NCBI GenBank assembly: GCA_016218045.1
Contig: JACRFB010000013.1
Span: forward strand, 124,001 to 188,000
DNA length: 64,000 nucleotides
Source of the DNA: Ignavibacteriota bacterium
GTDB lineage: Bacteria > Bacteroidota > Ignavibacteria > SZUA-365
Direction: 5' to 3'
The translations under genes were made by a program, and so were the position numbers. How positions within the stretch are numbered: position 1 is the stretch's first letter; every line of letters starts with the position of its first letter. Under the pieces are notes generated by a model. The model ran no database searches and had not been told where the DNA came from. It worked only from the letters and a program-made list of their open reading frames with translations. Positions 8,933 to 54,294 of the stretch are shown one piece after another.

Positions 8933-9775
8933 ATGAGACCCACCCAGAAAAAACTACCGCACGAACGGCCAATCATTCTCGTATCAAACGACGACGGATA
9001 CGACTCGCCGGGAATTTATGCACTTGTCATGGCGATGCGTCCACTCGGAGATGTTGTAGTAGCAGCCCCAGCCACACAACAAAGCGCTGTGGGACATGCA
9101 ATCACCATGCAAATGCCACTGCGTGCGAGGGAGATACGAAGGGGGATGTATTTCCGCGGATGGGCGGTTGAAGGAACTCCCGCCGACAGCGTCAAACTTG
9201 GCGCGACAACACTCCTGCCGCGGCTGCCCGACCTTGTTGTTTCGGGTATCAACCACGGGATGAACACTTCGATCAATATCATTTATTCCGGAACCGTGTC
9301 GGCCGCAACCGAGGGAGCAATTCTTGGAATCCCTTCGATTGCCTTTTCCCTGGCGACGCACGCACTCGATGCCGATTTACGTGGAGCCTCGAGGCATGCA
9401 CGTGTTATCGCTTCAACGGTGCTCAAAAATGGATTACCGCGAGGCACACTTCTGAATGTGAACGTACCCAACATTCCCGCAAACGAAATTCGCGGTATCA
9501 AGGTCACACGTCAAGGGCGCTCGTGGTGGGACGATGGCTTTGAGTCCCGGTCAGATCCGAACGGGCGCACATATTACTGGCTGTTCGGGAGTTATGTGTG
9601 GGATTCGGATTCCGATGCAGACGATGTCGCCCTACGAAACGGTTTTGTATCGGTTACACCGCTTCACTACAGTCTCACCGACGAAACCCTTTTACGCGAA
9701 TTACAGGAATGGAAATTCACGAAACGGCCTCACCGCGAAGGTGTCGCGCGCACACTTCGGGGGAAGAAGGGTTGA
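8933..9775 (+). CDS. surE: 5'-nucleotidase SurE
   Basis: 280 residues. The metal site SNDDG (Asn19, Asp20, Asp21), the NH motif VVSGINHGMN and SGTVSAATEGAILGIPSIAFS are all diagnostic for SurE, a nucleoside monophosphate phosphatase with exopolyphosphatase activity. The protein is cytoplasmic. TAGATTCG lies just before the ATG, so the transcript may have a very short leader. The last 59 bases overlap the convergent galT gene on the other strand. Confidence 0.95.
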   Translation: MRPTQKKLPHERPIILVSNDDGYDSPGIYALVMAMRPLGDVVVAAPATQQSAVGHAITMQMPLRAREIRRGMYFRGWAVEGTPADSVKLGATTLLPRLPDLVVSGINHGMNTSINIIYSGTVSAATEGAILGIPSIAFSLATHALDADLRGASRHARVIASTVLKNGLPRGTLLNVNVPNIPANEIRGIKVTRQGRSWWDDGFESRSDPNGRTYYWLFGSYVWDSDSDADDVALRNGFVSVTPLHYSLTDETLLRELQEWKFTKRPHREGVARTLRGKKG

Positions 9776-21111: not shown

Positions 21112-21585
21112 ATGACTAGGAACAATAACAGAGAGAGACGTCTTAATCCGGGAAACATGCTGCTGAATTTCGCGATCGTTCTCCTGGCAGCGATTGTTGT
21201 TTTTCTCCTCTACTCCTTCGTCAACACAACAATGGTGAATACCCCCGTCGACAATCAGGCCGATTCGAGGGGGATGACGACATCGGGAGAGGTGATTCAG
21301 TTGGATGTGTTGAACGGCTGCGGCGTGCAGGGAGTGGCGCAGGACTTCACTGATTTTCTGCGCAAACGGAAATTCGATGTCGTCCAATCGTCAAACTACA
21401 CATCGTTTGATGTCGTGGAATCGCTGGTCATCGATCGGGTTGGGAACAGGGCTACCGCGAGCAAGGTTGCTCACGCTCTGGGGATCGACGTCAAAAACGT
21501 CGTGACACAGATAAACCCCGATTACTATCTGCATGTTTCTGTCGTCATCGGCAGGGATTATCAGGAATTGAAACCGTACAAATAA
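21112..21585 (+). CDS. Membrane-anchored protein with LytR C-terminal domain
   Basis: 157 residues from the ATG at 21112; the earlier in-frame ATG lies ahead of the terminator hairpin. A single membrane segment (about residues 17-37) is followed by a LytR-C domain: IQLDVLNGCGVQGVAQDFTDFLRKR and a C-terminal strand VVIGRDYQ. In Gram-positives this domain accompanies cell-wall ligases; stand-alone versions are common in FCB bacteria and unexplained. It starts the unit with rsfS and argS; the gap to rsfS is 13 bases. Confidence 0.75.
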   Translation: MTRNNNRERRLNPGNMLLNFAIVLLAAIVVFLLYSFVNTTMVNTPVDNQADSRGMTTSGEVIQLDVLNGCGVQGVAQDFTDFLRKRKFDVVQSSNYTSFDVVESLVIDRVGNRATASKVAHALGIDVKNVVTQINPDYYLHVSVVIGRDYQELKPYK

Positions 21586-50734: not shown

Positions 50735-51679
50735 TCAGCGTTTACGGATCGTAATATCACCGAACTCGTTCAACACGGACAGCTTCCCCGATCCGTTGCC
50801 TACACGGCCTATGAGATCTTCCGGAGTTGGTCCATATCGCGTTTCCCGATTATTGTTGCGGGGCTGGAGCGGATAATCACTCTCCACATCCCCAAAACGC
50901 GTTTTCGCCTCGATGACACCCGTGAAATCACGCACGAGGGACACGGCAGTGCTGCCGTATGAATTCTGTATGCGTCCACCCGGAATATTCTTCGCCGTGA
51001 TGCTGCCCATGCGACCCAGGAGCGACACCGGGCCGCTCGCATCCGATACTTCTATCGCTCCGAACGCATTCGAGATTTCTCCGCCAGGAACATCGTAGGC
51101 GCGGACCTTTCCGTTTTTGCTTTCGACCTTGAATGCGCCTTTGATGGAACCCAGCGTGGTGTTTCCGAAAGAATTCTTCGCCTCCACATTGGCGCACCGT
51201 GTTATCTCTATCGAGCCAAATTGCGCCTGCACCGACACCGAACCTTCAACATCCGCGACGGTGATGCTGCCGAATTTATTTGCGATATCGAGAACGGACC
51301 TTTTGGGAACGGAGACAACGATACTCGCATTCATGGACTGCTTCCCGCTGTTTGAACGGGAGCCGTCCCAATCCACTTCAACGCGAACCTCATTGCGGGA
51401 TCCGTCGATCACAACGTCGACGTCTTCGGCACGTTCTTTTGCATTTTCATAGTCGTCATCCTCGACCGTGATATGCACTTTTACGTCCACAATCGACGAC
51501 TCAGTACCCTTGATTGTAACGGGGCCGAACTTGCTTTCGACGCGCACAGTCGGATTCGCCTGCACCTCGAAATGTTTTTCGACTTTGCGCTCAAATTTCT
51601 GCGCAGACGCGAAGGGAGAAAAGATCAGGGTGATGAGGCAAAGCAGTGGAAAGATGCGGAACATCAATGTCGTGTTCAT
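50735..51679 (-). CDS. Exported DUF4097 family beta-helix-like protein
   Basis: 314 residues with a signal peptide ending near ASAQ. The mature part repeats short strands with the FGSI/FGAI/FGDI pattern (NKFGSITVADVEG, AQFGSIEITRCANV, NAFGAIEVSDASG, FGDVESDYPL), as in the DUF4097 family. Members are predicted beta-solenoids often found beside ECF sigma factors and PspC-like proteins. It lies 18 bases after the anti-sigma-like gene and is probably in its operon. Function unknown; an envelope sensor or adhesin is possible. Confidence 0.85.
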   Translation of the reverse strand: MNTTLMFRIFPLLCLITLIFSPFASAQKFERKVEKHFEVQANPTVRVESKFGPVTIKGTESSIVDVKVHITVEDDDYENAKERAEDVDVVIDGSRNEVRVEVDWDGSRSNSGKQSMNASIVVSVPKRSVLDIANKFGSITVADVEGSVSVQAQFGSIEITRCANVEAKNSFGNTTLGSIKGAFKVESKNGKVRAYDVPGGEISNAFGAIEVSDASGPVSLLGRMGSITAKNIPGGRIQNSYGSTAVSLVRDFTGVIEAKTRFGDVESDYPLQPRNNNRETRYGPTPEDLIGRVGNGSGKLSVLNEFGDITIRKR

Positions 51680-51697: not shown

Positions 51698-52303
51698 CTA
51701 CAGTGATTGATTCTTCGAGGCCATTTCCTGCAATGTGTTCTGCAGGTCGATATAGGCGGTGAGCAGATACTGCTGCACATCGGGGTGGTAGCGGTTCTGT
51801 CCCAATGCAGATTTACACTCGGTGATCGCGGTGTGCAGCGACGCGATTTTTTCCTTCTGCACCGCGACATATTCCGGATCGAGGTTTTTCTCGTTACGCT
51901 CAGCGAGCACCGTGAGTTTTTCTATCGCACGTTCATAAAAAAACATGGCCTGGTCGATGTCGTCGCGTGCCTCTTCCATCAACTGATTCGATTCGAGCGG
52001 AGCGGCGATGTCCTGTTCCGCGACATCGAGGCGGGATGTGAGGAGATACACCGCCGCAGTGAGACCAAGCAGAAGAATCACCGCGTACCCGGCCAGAGCG
52101 ATCCGGGGTCGGGACGCAAACAACAAGCGCAGCCCAAGCCAGCGCGGGGTGTGCGAGGACTCGGTGCCATCCTGCCTCTGCACTTCGCGCAGATCCGTTT
52201 CGATCCGTTTCCACAAGTGTTCGGGCGGATCCACGCGCGGCAACTTCGCGGCTGCGTCATCGATTACTCGATCGAGATCGCTTCTGTTCCAATCGTCTTT
52301 CAT
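51698..52303 (-). CDS. One-membrane-helix anti-sigma-like protein, no zinc motif
   Basis: 201 residues with one membrane helix (about 67-89). The cytoplasmic side starts RSDLDRVIDDAAAKLPRVDPPEHLWKRIETDL, helical and charged. The periplasmic side is a long coiled coil (about 90-195). No cysteine-containing ZAS zinc motif is present. The ATG overlaps the sigma gene stop by 4 bases (ATGA), so synthesis is coupled. Position and layout make it the likely partner of the ECF sigma factor, but this rests on context only. Confidence 0.7.
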   Translation of the reverse strand: MKDDWNRSDLDRVIDDAAAKLPRVDPPEHLWKRIETDLREVQRQDGTESSHTPRWLGLRLLFASRPRIALAGYAVILLLGLTAAVYLLTSRLDVAEQDIAAPLESNQLMEEARDDIDQAMFFYERAIEKLTVLAERNEKNLDPEYVAVQKEKIASLHTAITECKSALGQNRYHPDVQQYLLTAYIDLQNTLQEMASKNQSL

Positions 52304-52902
52304 CCGTGCATCTCCCGCTGTTTGATGCCCAACCTCGACAATCTTTTCTTTAACTCTTCCTTCGCCCGATGATAATGCGACTTCGATGTACCGACAGGGA
52401 TCTTCAGCGTGTCGGCAATCTCGGGGTGTGTGAATCCTTCGGTTGCAAACAGCAGGAACACCGCTCGTTGCAAGGCCGGAAGCGTAGCAATTTCACGCTG
52501 CAAGGTGTCGCGGAGAATGACGTCGACATCAGGGCGGTCCGGATCGGAGGGGTGCATGTGTTCAGAGGCATAATCCGCGTGTTCCTCGAAGTGCCGCTCG
52601 CGGCGCTTGCGGTTGATGCAGGCATTCAGGAGTATACGATAGAGCCAGGTCCCGAATGCGGAATCGCCCTTGAAGCTGTGAATTCCGCGATACATGGCAA
52701 TGAAGGCGTCCTGGACGGAGTCCTCCGCGTCGAATCGGTTGCCATGGAAATTGTATGCGAGCGAGTACATGGGACGTTTAAAGAGTTGGTACACTTGTTC
52801 GAAGGCGGCGATATCGCCCTGCCGGCAACGGTCGAGCACATCGCCGGGCATGTTCGGCAGGGATCGTTTCCCTGTCTCAGTGACAGTGGCAGTCATCGTC
52901 AT
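52300..52902 (-). CDS. ECF RNA polymerase sigma factor
   Basis: 200 residues. Region 2 (about 25-95) carries FEQVYQLFKRPMYSLAYNF and DAEDSVQDAFIAMYRG, and region 4 (142-190) carries LPALQRAVFLLFATEGFTHPEIADTLKIPVGTSKSHYHRA, typical of RpoE-like ECF factors. Its promoter box CGTCTAAT ends only 9 bases before the ATG at 52902; the ATG at 52851 (MPGDVLDRC) is the alternative and fits the family start better. Divergent with the PDZ protein and coupled to the anti-sigma-like gene. Confidence 0.92.
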   Translation of the reverse strand: MTMTATVTETGKRSLPNMPGDVLDRCRQGDIAAFEQVYQLFKRPMYSLAYNFHGNRFDAEDSVQDAFIAMYRGIHSFKGDSAFGTWLYRILLNACINRKRRERHFEEHADYASEHMHPSDPDRPDVDVILRDTLQREIATLPALQRAVFLLFATEGFTHPEIADTLKIPVGTSKSHYHRAKEELKKRLSRLGIKQREMHG

Positions 52903-52910
52903 ACAGGGGA

Positions 52911-52939
52911 TTAGACGTGATAGATGTCAGAACGGTTGC
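52911..52939 (-). promoter_or_regulatory. Putative ECF promoter of the sigma/anti-sigma operon
   Basis: On the minus strand GCAAC (52939-52935) is followed by 17 bases and CGTCTAAT (52917-52910). The -10 box is identical to that of the divergent promoter; the -35 differs from GGAAC at one base. Transcription would begin within a few bases of 52902. Confidence 0.55.
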
Positions 52940-53067
52940 ACAAGAGATCGGTGAATCGCAATGTAGCTTCCCAGGACGAAATCACGCATTCCCGCTGTAG
53001 AGCGCTGCGTGACGGTCGTTCAGTGCACCCGGCGACGGCCCGGCGGACCGTGCTCAGGATGGATGCG

Positions 53068-53095
53068 GGAACAAATGCCGCCATGCAACGTCTAA
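53068..53095 (+). promoter_or_regulatory. Putative ECF promoter of the two-PDZ gene
   Basis: GGAAC at 53068-53072, 16-base spacer, CGTCTAA at 53089-53095. This matches the classical ECF pattern. The PDZ start codon is at 53155, giving a leader of about 55 bases with GAGGAG at 53141-53146. Confidence 0.65.
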
Positions 53096-53154
53096 TGATG
53101 CTTCAGGATAGGCGTATTGACCTTCATCGAACCGTAGCAAGAGGAGACACTACA

Positions 53155-54294
53155 ATGAAAACAATTCTGTTTCTCGCGGCCATATCGCTGTGCCTGGCAG
53201 GATCGGGGGTACAGACGGCATCGGCACAAGTGAAGAAGGAAAAGAAAAAAATCGAAACGATTTCCGCAGCAAAAGGTGCATGGCTCGGAGTCGCGTTAAA
53301 AAGCGTGACAAAGGAACTGAAGGGTGAGGAAGATTTGAAAACGTCGACCGGAGCCTACATCGATGACGTTATCGATGATAGTCCCGCGGCAGAGGCGGGC
53401 TTTCAGGAAGGCGACGTTGTTATTGAATTCGACGGAAAAAAAATTTCCGATGCCGAGGATCTGCAAAAGGCGGTGAAGGATGCCGGAGTCGGGAAAAAAG
53501 TGAATGTGGTCGTTTTCCGGGATGATGAGAAAAAAACCCTGAGTGCGACACTTACCGAGCAGAAAAAGGACGCCTTTGCACTCGCGGACGCGTATCGCGA
53601 GAAATCGCGCCGATACAGCATCACGCTCCCGCCGGGTGCCCCAACGCCTCCCATGCCTCCGCGCGCGATGCACTTCCGCAGCTCCGCGTCTTCAGGCGTG
53701 TACGGGATGAAACTGCTCGAGTTAAACGAACAACTCGGCGCATATTTCGGTACAACGGATGGCAAGGGTGTGCTAGTCACGGAAGTGAAGAAAGAGAGCG
53801 CCGCGGAGAAGGCCGGCTTCAAAGCTGGCGACGTTGTGCTGCGCGCAGGAAAAAAGACCATCGAAGATGCCGGAGATTTCCGCAGTGTTTTCGGCGCCTT
53901 TGACAAGGGTGAAAGCATCCCCTGCGAGGTAATTCGCAAGGGCGAAAAATTGACGCTGAATCTCGAAGCGGCTGGCGAGGAAGAAAAGGATAACATGTTC
54001 TTTTTCCATTCGCCAGGAAGCGGGATCATGCAATGGAACGGCGAGGGTGATGATGACGAGGCATTTGACATTTCGATACCGGATGTGAACATCGATATTC
54101 AGAGAATAGGTGAAGGCGCCGATCTGAAGGAACTGCAGGAGTCGCTCAAGGATTTGGACGTGCGTGTGGAGGAAGAGAGTGACGGCCCCGGTGTGGTGCG
54201 CAAACGCGTCACTGTCACACCCAAGTCCGGCGAAGGCGGTGGTGAAAAACGGATTATCATCCGTACGGAAAAAAAGGACGGCAAAGATATTTAA
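53155..54294 (+). CDS. Exported protein with two PDZ domains, no protease domain
   Basis: 379 residues from the ATG at 53155. A signal peptide ends near TASAQ. PDZ1 spans about 41-136 (AWLGVALKS, AAEAGFQEGDVVIEFDGKKI) and PDZ2 about 183-272 (GVLVTEVKKESAAEKAGFKAGDVVLRAGKKTI). The tail 280-379 is acidic and disordered-looking, then basic. HtrA-family catalytic residues are absent; the PDZ pair could bind exposed C-termini of misfolded outer-membrane proteins, as DegS does. Its promoter suggests control by the adjacent ECF sigma factor. Confidence 0.87.
   Translation: MKTILFLAAISLCLAGSGVQTASAQVKKEKKKIETISAAKGAWLGVALKSVTKELKGEEDLKTSTGAYIDDVIDDSPAAEAGFQEGDVVIEFDGKKISDAEDLQKAVKDAGVGKKVNVVVFRDDEKKTLSATLTEQKKDAFALADAYREKSRRYSITLPPGAPTPPMPPRAMHFRSSASSGVYGMKLLELNEQLGAYFGTTDGKGVLVTEVKKESAAEKAGFKAGDVVLRAGKKTIEDAGDFRSVFGAFDKGESIPCEVIRKGEKLTLNLEAAGEEEKDNMFFFHSPGSGIMQWNGEGDDDEAFDISIPDVNIDIQRIGEGADLKELQESLKDLDVRVEEESDGPGVVRKRVTVTPKSGEGGGEKRIIIRTEKKDGKDI

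Follow-up and report, generated by a model that had tools for sequence, protein, structure and literature searches.

Organization of the locus

We analyzed a stretch of 64,000 nucleotides (hereafter, the window) in which an operon encoding an ECF sigma factor (SigA), an anti-sigma factor and a DUF4097 protein lies divergent from a gene for a secreted protein with two PDZ domains. The intergenic region between them contains two promoter-like sites, P_sig and P_pdz:

50735..51679, minus strand: DUF4097 'toastrack' protein, gene 3 of the SigA operon (PF13349, 1.6e-7; synteny)
51698..52303, minus strand: anti-sigma factor, 201 aa, one probable membrane span (weak match to an anti-sigma model; synteny)
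52300..52902, minus strand: SigA, the neighbouring ECF sigma factor, 200 aa, regions 2 and 4
52910..52940, minus strand: P_sig, putative autoregulatory promoter of SigA, (T)GCAAC-N17-CGTCTAAT
53068..53096, plus strand: P_pdz, putative promoter of the two-PDZ gene, ECF-B/RpoE class, GGAAC-N16-CGTCTAAT
53142..53146, plus strand: Shine-Dalgarno AGGAG of the PDZ gene (from sequence)
53155..54294, plus strand: two-PDZ secreted protein, 379 aa, signal peptide (PDZ_2 in two stretches)

In line with an ECF (group IV) sigma factor, SigA has regions 2 and 4 only (Sigma70_r2 and Sigma70_r4_2) and adjoins an anti-sigma factor whose membrane span was judged from sequence; the two genes overlap by 4 nt. The two-PDZ protein is not an HtrA/DegP protease: in domain and profile searches, HtrA/DegP models matched its PDZ parts only, and the trypsin-like domain is absent.

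The original prediction had placed the same box on both strands between the sigma factor gene and the PDZ gene, with GGAAC 16 bases before it on the plus strand and GCAAC 17 bases before it on the minus strand. Both boxes and both spacers were recovered: on the plus strand, GGAAC (53068-53072) is followed after 16 nt by CGTCTAAT (53089-53096), and on the minus strand, GCAAC (52939-52935) is followed after 17 nt by CGTCTAAT (52917-52910). The octamer by itself is not significant (3 occurrences in the window vs 1.45 expected), and we rejected an argument for significance based on the octamer alone. It is their retention in related genomes that puts both sites far beyond chance, and their reading as ECF promoters looks genuine on that ground. 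The shared box itself is exact in this genome only; the relatives have CGTC in common between the two sides.

Conservation of the SigA promoter

A search of eleven other genomes of the family identified eight further SigA orthologues (51-56% identity) in seven of them. The anti-sigma gene is kept at all eight loci (one of them cut by a contig end), the DUF4097 gene at seven and the divergent PDZ gene at six; with the window counted, SigA adjoins the PDZ gene at 7 family loci. Every orthologue with available upstream DNA (8/8, window counted) carries the SigA-side consensus TGCAACCNTT-N13-CGTC. Expressed as core boxes, this is GCAAC-N17-CGTC at 8/8 loci, with a spacer of always 17 nt, and in the seven loci other than the window CGTC is followed by TGAA, TTAA, TTAT, ATAG, CTAG, AAAG or CAAT. 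A second SigA copy in one genome (L053 in G008) keeps the motif though it has no PDZ neighbour.

Typical features of ECF systems are AAC and CGT boxes, a cognate anti-sigma factor and positive autoregulation (PMC8103513). The conserved AAC/CGT promoter upstream of SigA, present in 8/8 orthologues and even where the PDZ gene is missing, is in line with such an autoregulated operon, and SigA probably activates its own operon via P_sig; to this extent the closed circuit of the original prediction is supported.

Outside the SigA loci, matches to the SigA-side motif with one mismatch were mostly intragenic, and none lay upstream of another sigma factor gene. These matches gave no conserved target, and a wider regulon for the motif was rejected. 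Among 22 ECF loci of the family that were examined, the motif stands upstream of the SigA orthologue only. Beyond the family, no SigA orthologue was detected in a 296-genome sample of the phylum at E <= 1e-35, with up to 10 candidates scored per genome. An Acidobacteria MAG keeps the sigma factor and DUF4097 genes, with no PDZ gene in the stretch examined.

In the window, the SigA -10 box ends 7 nt ahead of the first ATG (52896-52917), with further candidate starts for SigA at the ATGs at 52896 or 52851 and a predicted leader of a few bases. No Shine-Dalgarno sequence was seen for SigA in the window, and most relatives have a GGAG/GGAA-type site at that place; the SigA message may be leaderless, or translation may begin from an ATG further downstream.

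The PDZ promoter belongs to the class found upstream of ECF-B

A genome-wide pattern search, as the original prediction had proposed, was run as GGAAC-N14-18-CGTCTAA, and returned 2 matches in the whole 4.77-Mb genome, with 0 for reversed-pattern controls. The second match, besides P_pdz, lies upstream of a different ECF gene (G000:C63, L058), here called ECF-B. The related pattern GGAACW-N14-16-CGTCTAWW likewise had 2 matches in this genome (PDZ gene and ECF-B), with 0 for controls. Across 16 genomes of the order it had 27 matches vs 9 for reversed controls: sites upstream of ECF-B account for 12, those upstream of the PDZ gene for 11 and one upstream of a DUF4159 gene (G307) for 1, and the other 3 are intragenic. 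One of these ECF-B genes, in G310, is a fragment at a contig end that was identified from its translation. Matches to the PDZ-side pattern with one mismatch showed no excess over reversed controls, many being intragenic, and stricter matches were therefore used for the counts. One-mismatch sites upstream of LolD-like genes occurred in two genomes only (L106, L099), leaving these genes weak candidate targets.

Within the family, GGAAC-N16-CGTCTAA[A/T] precedes the PDZ gene at 7/7 loci that have both genes (window counted), with a spacer of always 16 nt. The wider class GGAAC[A/T]-N15/16-CGTCTA[A/T] is found at 12/12 PDZ orthologues of the order with readable upstream DNA, eight of them in the family and the others in G307, G310, G308 and G309; a copy in G011, cut by a contig end, was excluded. 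This promoter is retained in G010 and G307-G310 although SigA was not found there (no orthologue at E <= 1e-40 in these draft genomes, some of which are 70-80% complete). In the stretches examined of G010, G307 and G310, neither the SigA gene nor the ECF-B gene adjoins the PDZ gene. G003 (L052, about 8980-9140) has near-repeats GGA[A/T]CTTTCCG[G/T]G that take in the PDZ promoter and the DNA ahead of it, and the -35 region there appears several times in tandem.

Each of the 12 family genomes has an ECF-B orthologue, as does G309; the match in G307 is weaker. GGAAC-N16-CGTC[T/A]A stands upstream of 13/13 clear orthologues (one with N17); the weak G307 match is without the motif. In a 149-genome sample of the class, the intergenic sites examined for GGAACW-N14-16-CGTCTAWW were mainly upstream of ECF-B orthologues, and the same-class motif also precedes genes for two-PDZ proteins, in two additional families (L219, L229). 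Other putative targets in this sample, each seen at one or two loci, are small secreted proteins (L210, L212), a UppS-like gene (L232) and MoxR-type ATPases. The last of these sites lie in two genomes of one family (L223 in G254, L231 in G104), and the MoxR-type ATPase genes are possible further members of the ECF-B regulon.

The ECF-B loci have some peculiarities of their own. In family f3 (L187-L190, L195, L196, L235, L236), the ECF-B start codon lies 0-3 nt after the -10 box, mostly with no alternative start codon nearby, which suggests leaderless translation of ECF-B there. In the genome that contains the window, the -10 box and the ECF-B ATG overlap, and translation may actually start at a GTG 10 nt after the box. 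ECF-B is followed in this genome by a gene (L058:4970-6691, minus strand) for a protein of 574 aa, which is much longer than the relatives' anti-sigma factors, has a long C-terminal extension and is without a family match. The ECF-B match in G010 (L133) contains one in-frame TGA, which may reflect a frameshift, an assembly error or an extension past the true stop.

Motif models and recognition residues

The two promoter classes were also compared with position weight models, trained with the scored genome left out; these are small models, and a similar pattern had first drawn attention to several of the ECF-B sites. They separate the SigA-side class cleanly from the PDZ/ECF-B class. Under the ECF-B model, PDZ sites scored 19.3-26.6 bits and ECF-B sites 14.7-26.4, vs -0.1 to 11.8 for SigA-side sites; under the SigA-side model, the latter scored 20.3-24.4 bits and PDZ sites 4.2-12.9. 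When the window was scanned with models that excluded this genome, the ECF-B model placed P_pdz first (23.4 bits vs 18.3 for the next site) and the SigA-side model placed P_sig first (23.3 vs 13.8). The second and third best window sites under the ECF-B model are 2701-2730 and 21119-21146, both on the plus strand, at 18.3 and 18.0 bits.

The sigma factors themselves differ in their recognition helices. The closest solved structure to SigA is B. subtilis SigW and that to ECF-B is E. coli RpoE; the helices read GTSKSxYH[RK]A in SigA, GTVKSR[IL][SA]R in ECF-B and GTVRSRIFR in RpoE. The -35 element of RpoE is GGAACTT, in which R173 and R176 contact G-35 and T169 and S172 contact G-34; that of SigW is TGAAACxTTT, and SigW has a His (H174) at the position of RpoE F175 (PMC6713349). 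SigA has His at the F175 position and no Arg at 173, and ECF-B keeps the Arg at 173. These residues agree with, and do not prove, recognition of GCAACC by SigA and of GGAAC by ECF-B.

Discussion

Judging from motifs and residues, we consider it likely that two ECF promoters of different specificity stand back to back in the intergenic region, P_sig being read by SigA and P_pdz by ECF-B. Because the PDZ promoter is of the same class as that of ECF-B, while SigA's own is of a different one, ECF-B most likely has the PDZ gene in its regulon. An envelope signal would free ECF-B from its membrane anti-sigma factor, and freed ECF-B would transcribe the PDZ gene along with the ECF-B operon. The exported PDZ protein, without a protease domain, would have a periplasmic function, possibly that of a chaperone or adaptor. 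SigA, which is SigW-like, would separately autoactivate the SigA/anti-sigma/DUF4097 operon. The PDZ protein would then be a conserved target of an RpoE-like response, beside which the SigA operon is placed in this family only.

The original prediction went further in having SigA alone activate the PDZ gene as well as its own operon. This closed circuit has in its favor the divergent adjacency kept at 7 family loci and the presence of AAC and CGTC at ECF-like spacing in both sites; its autoregulatory half is supported. SigA as the principal activator of the PDZ gene is not: the -35 differs consistently across orthologues (GCAACC vs GGAAC[A/T]), as do the -10 extension and the spacer (17 vs 16), and the PDZ promoter shares its class with that of ECF-B and persists in genomes where SigA was not found. 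Comparison of the motif classes, of the genes that each of them accompanies and of the leave-genome-out models disfavored the circuit, and as a whole we regard it as highly improbable. A milder version, in which the PDZ promoter is read mainly by ECF-B and usefully by SigA as well, joining two stress responses, is unlikely too. Since AAC and CGTC are common to both classes, cross-recognition between SigA and ECF-B is possible, and SigA may add a minor contribution at the PDZ promoter. That SigA and the PDZ gene stay neighbours within the family favors such a shared target, as does the rank of P_pdz among the top five window sites under the SigA-side model; its 12.7 bits, however, do not exceed what chance sites in the window reach, two other sites scoring 13.8.

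Two further explanations concern the sites themselves. That a third ECF sigma factor reads the SigA-side promoter in a cascade seems very unlikely: a first look found about 20 ECF-like candidates per genome, yet neither the one-mismatch matches outside the SigA loci nor the 22 family ECF loci place the motif before any sigma factor gene other than that of SigA. That the boxes resemble promoters by coincidence is hardly credible; the octamer by itself is common, whereas orientation and spacing are kept in 8 and 12 orthologues within otherwise divergent intergenic DNA.

Our favored reading, two separate promoters read by SigA and ECF-B, leaves the conserved SigA/PDZ adjacency unexplained and gives room for some cross-control; the 7 family loci suggest some functional tie between the two. 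A speculative and distinctly unlikely form of this tie is that the locus is a wiring point between two ECF envelope-stress systems, with the ECF-B-induced PDZ protein acting in the periplasm on SigA signalling, for example on SigA's anti-sigma factor or DUF4097. If true, one response would tune the other, and this would account for the place that the SigA operon took next to the PDZ gene.

A search of the literature available to us found no paper on the sigma/PDZ module. For a bacterial class that has received little study, the analysis predicts, at the level of promoters, an RpoE-like response in which ECF-B controls its own gene and that of a secreted two-PDZ protein lacking a protease domain. 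Adjacency to a sigma factor operon is often read as regulon membership, and this locus offers a clear case of a gene divergent from such an operon that is most likely under another sigma factor.

Comparison with known systems

SigA resembles B. subtilis SigW in the His at the H174 position and in its -35 element, TGCAACCNTT being similar to TGAAACxTTT. It differs from SigW in that the SigA-side -35 has C for A at -34 and a T run shifted by one base, and in its operon partners; its scores against the NCBIfam SigW models, 107-109 bits, lie below the cut-offs of 209-243. ECF-B scores 130-136 bits, below the NCBIfam RpoE cut-off of 236, and is therefore described here as RpoE-like rather than as a filed RpoE member. 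It shares with E. coli RpoE a -35 core GGAAC, which precedes its own gene in 13/13 orthologues, a membrane anti-sigma factor next door and a similar recognition helix; this anti-sigma factor is weakly RseA-like, and extended in the window's genome. The two-PDZ protein is like HtrA/DegP in that its PDZ domains match the models for these proteins, and unlike them in the missing trypsin-like domain. In E. coli, DegP is a PDZ-bearing periplasmic target of RpoE. The predicted ECF-B regulon resembles that of RpoE in having a PDZ-bearing periplasmic protein as a target, which here, unlike in E. coli, combines two PDZ domains with no protease.
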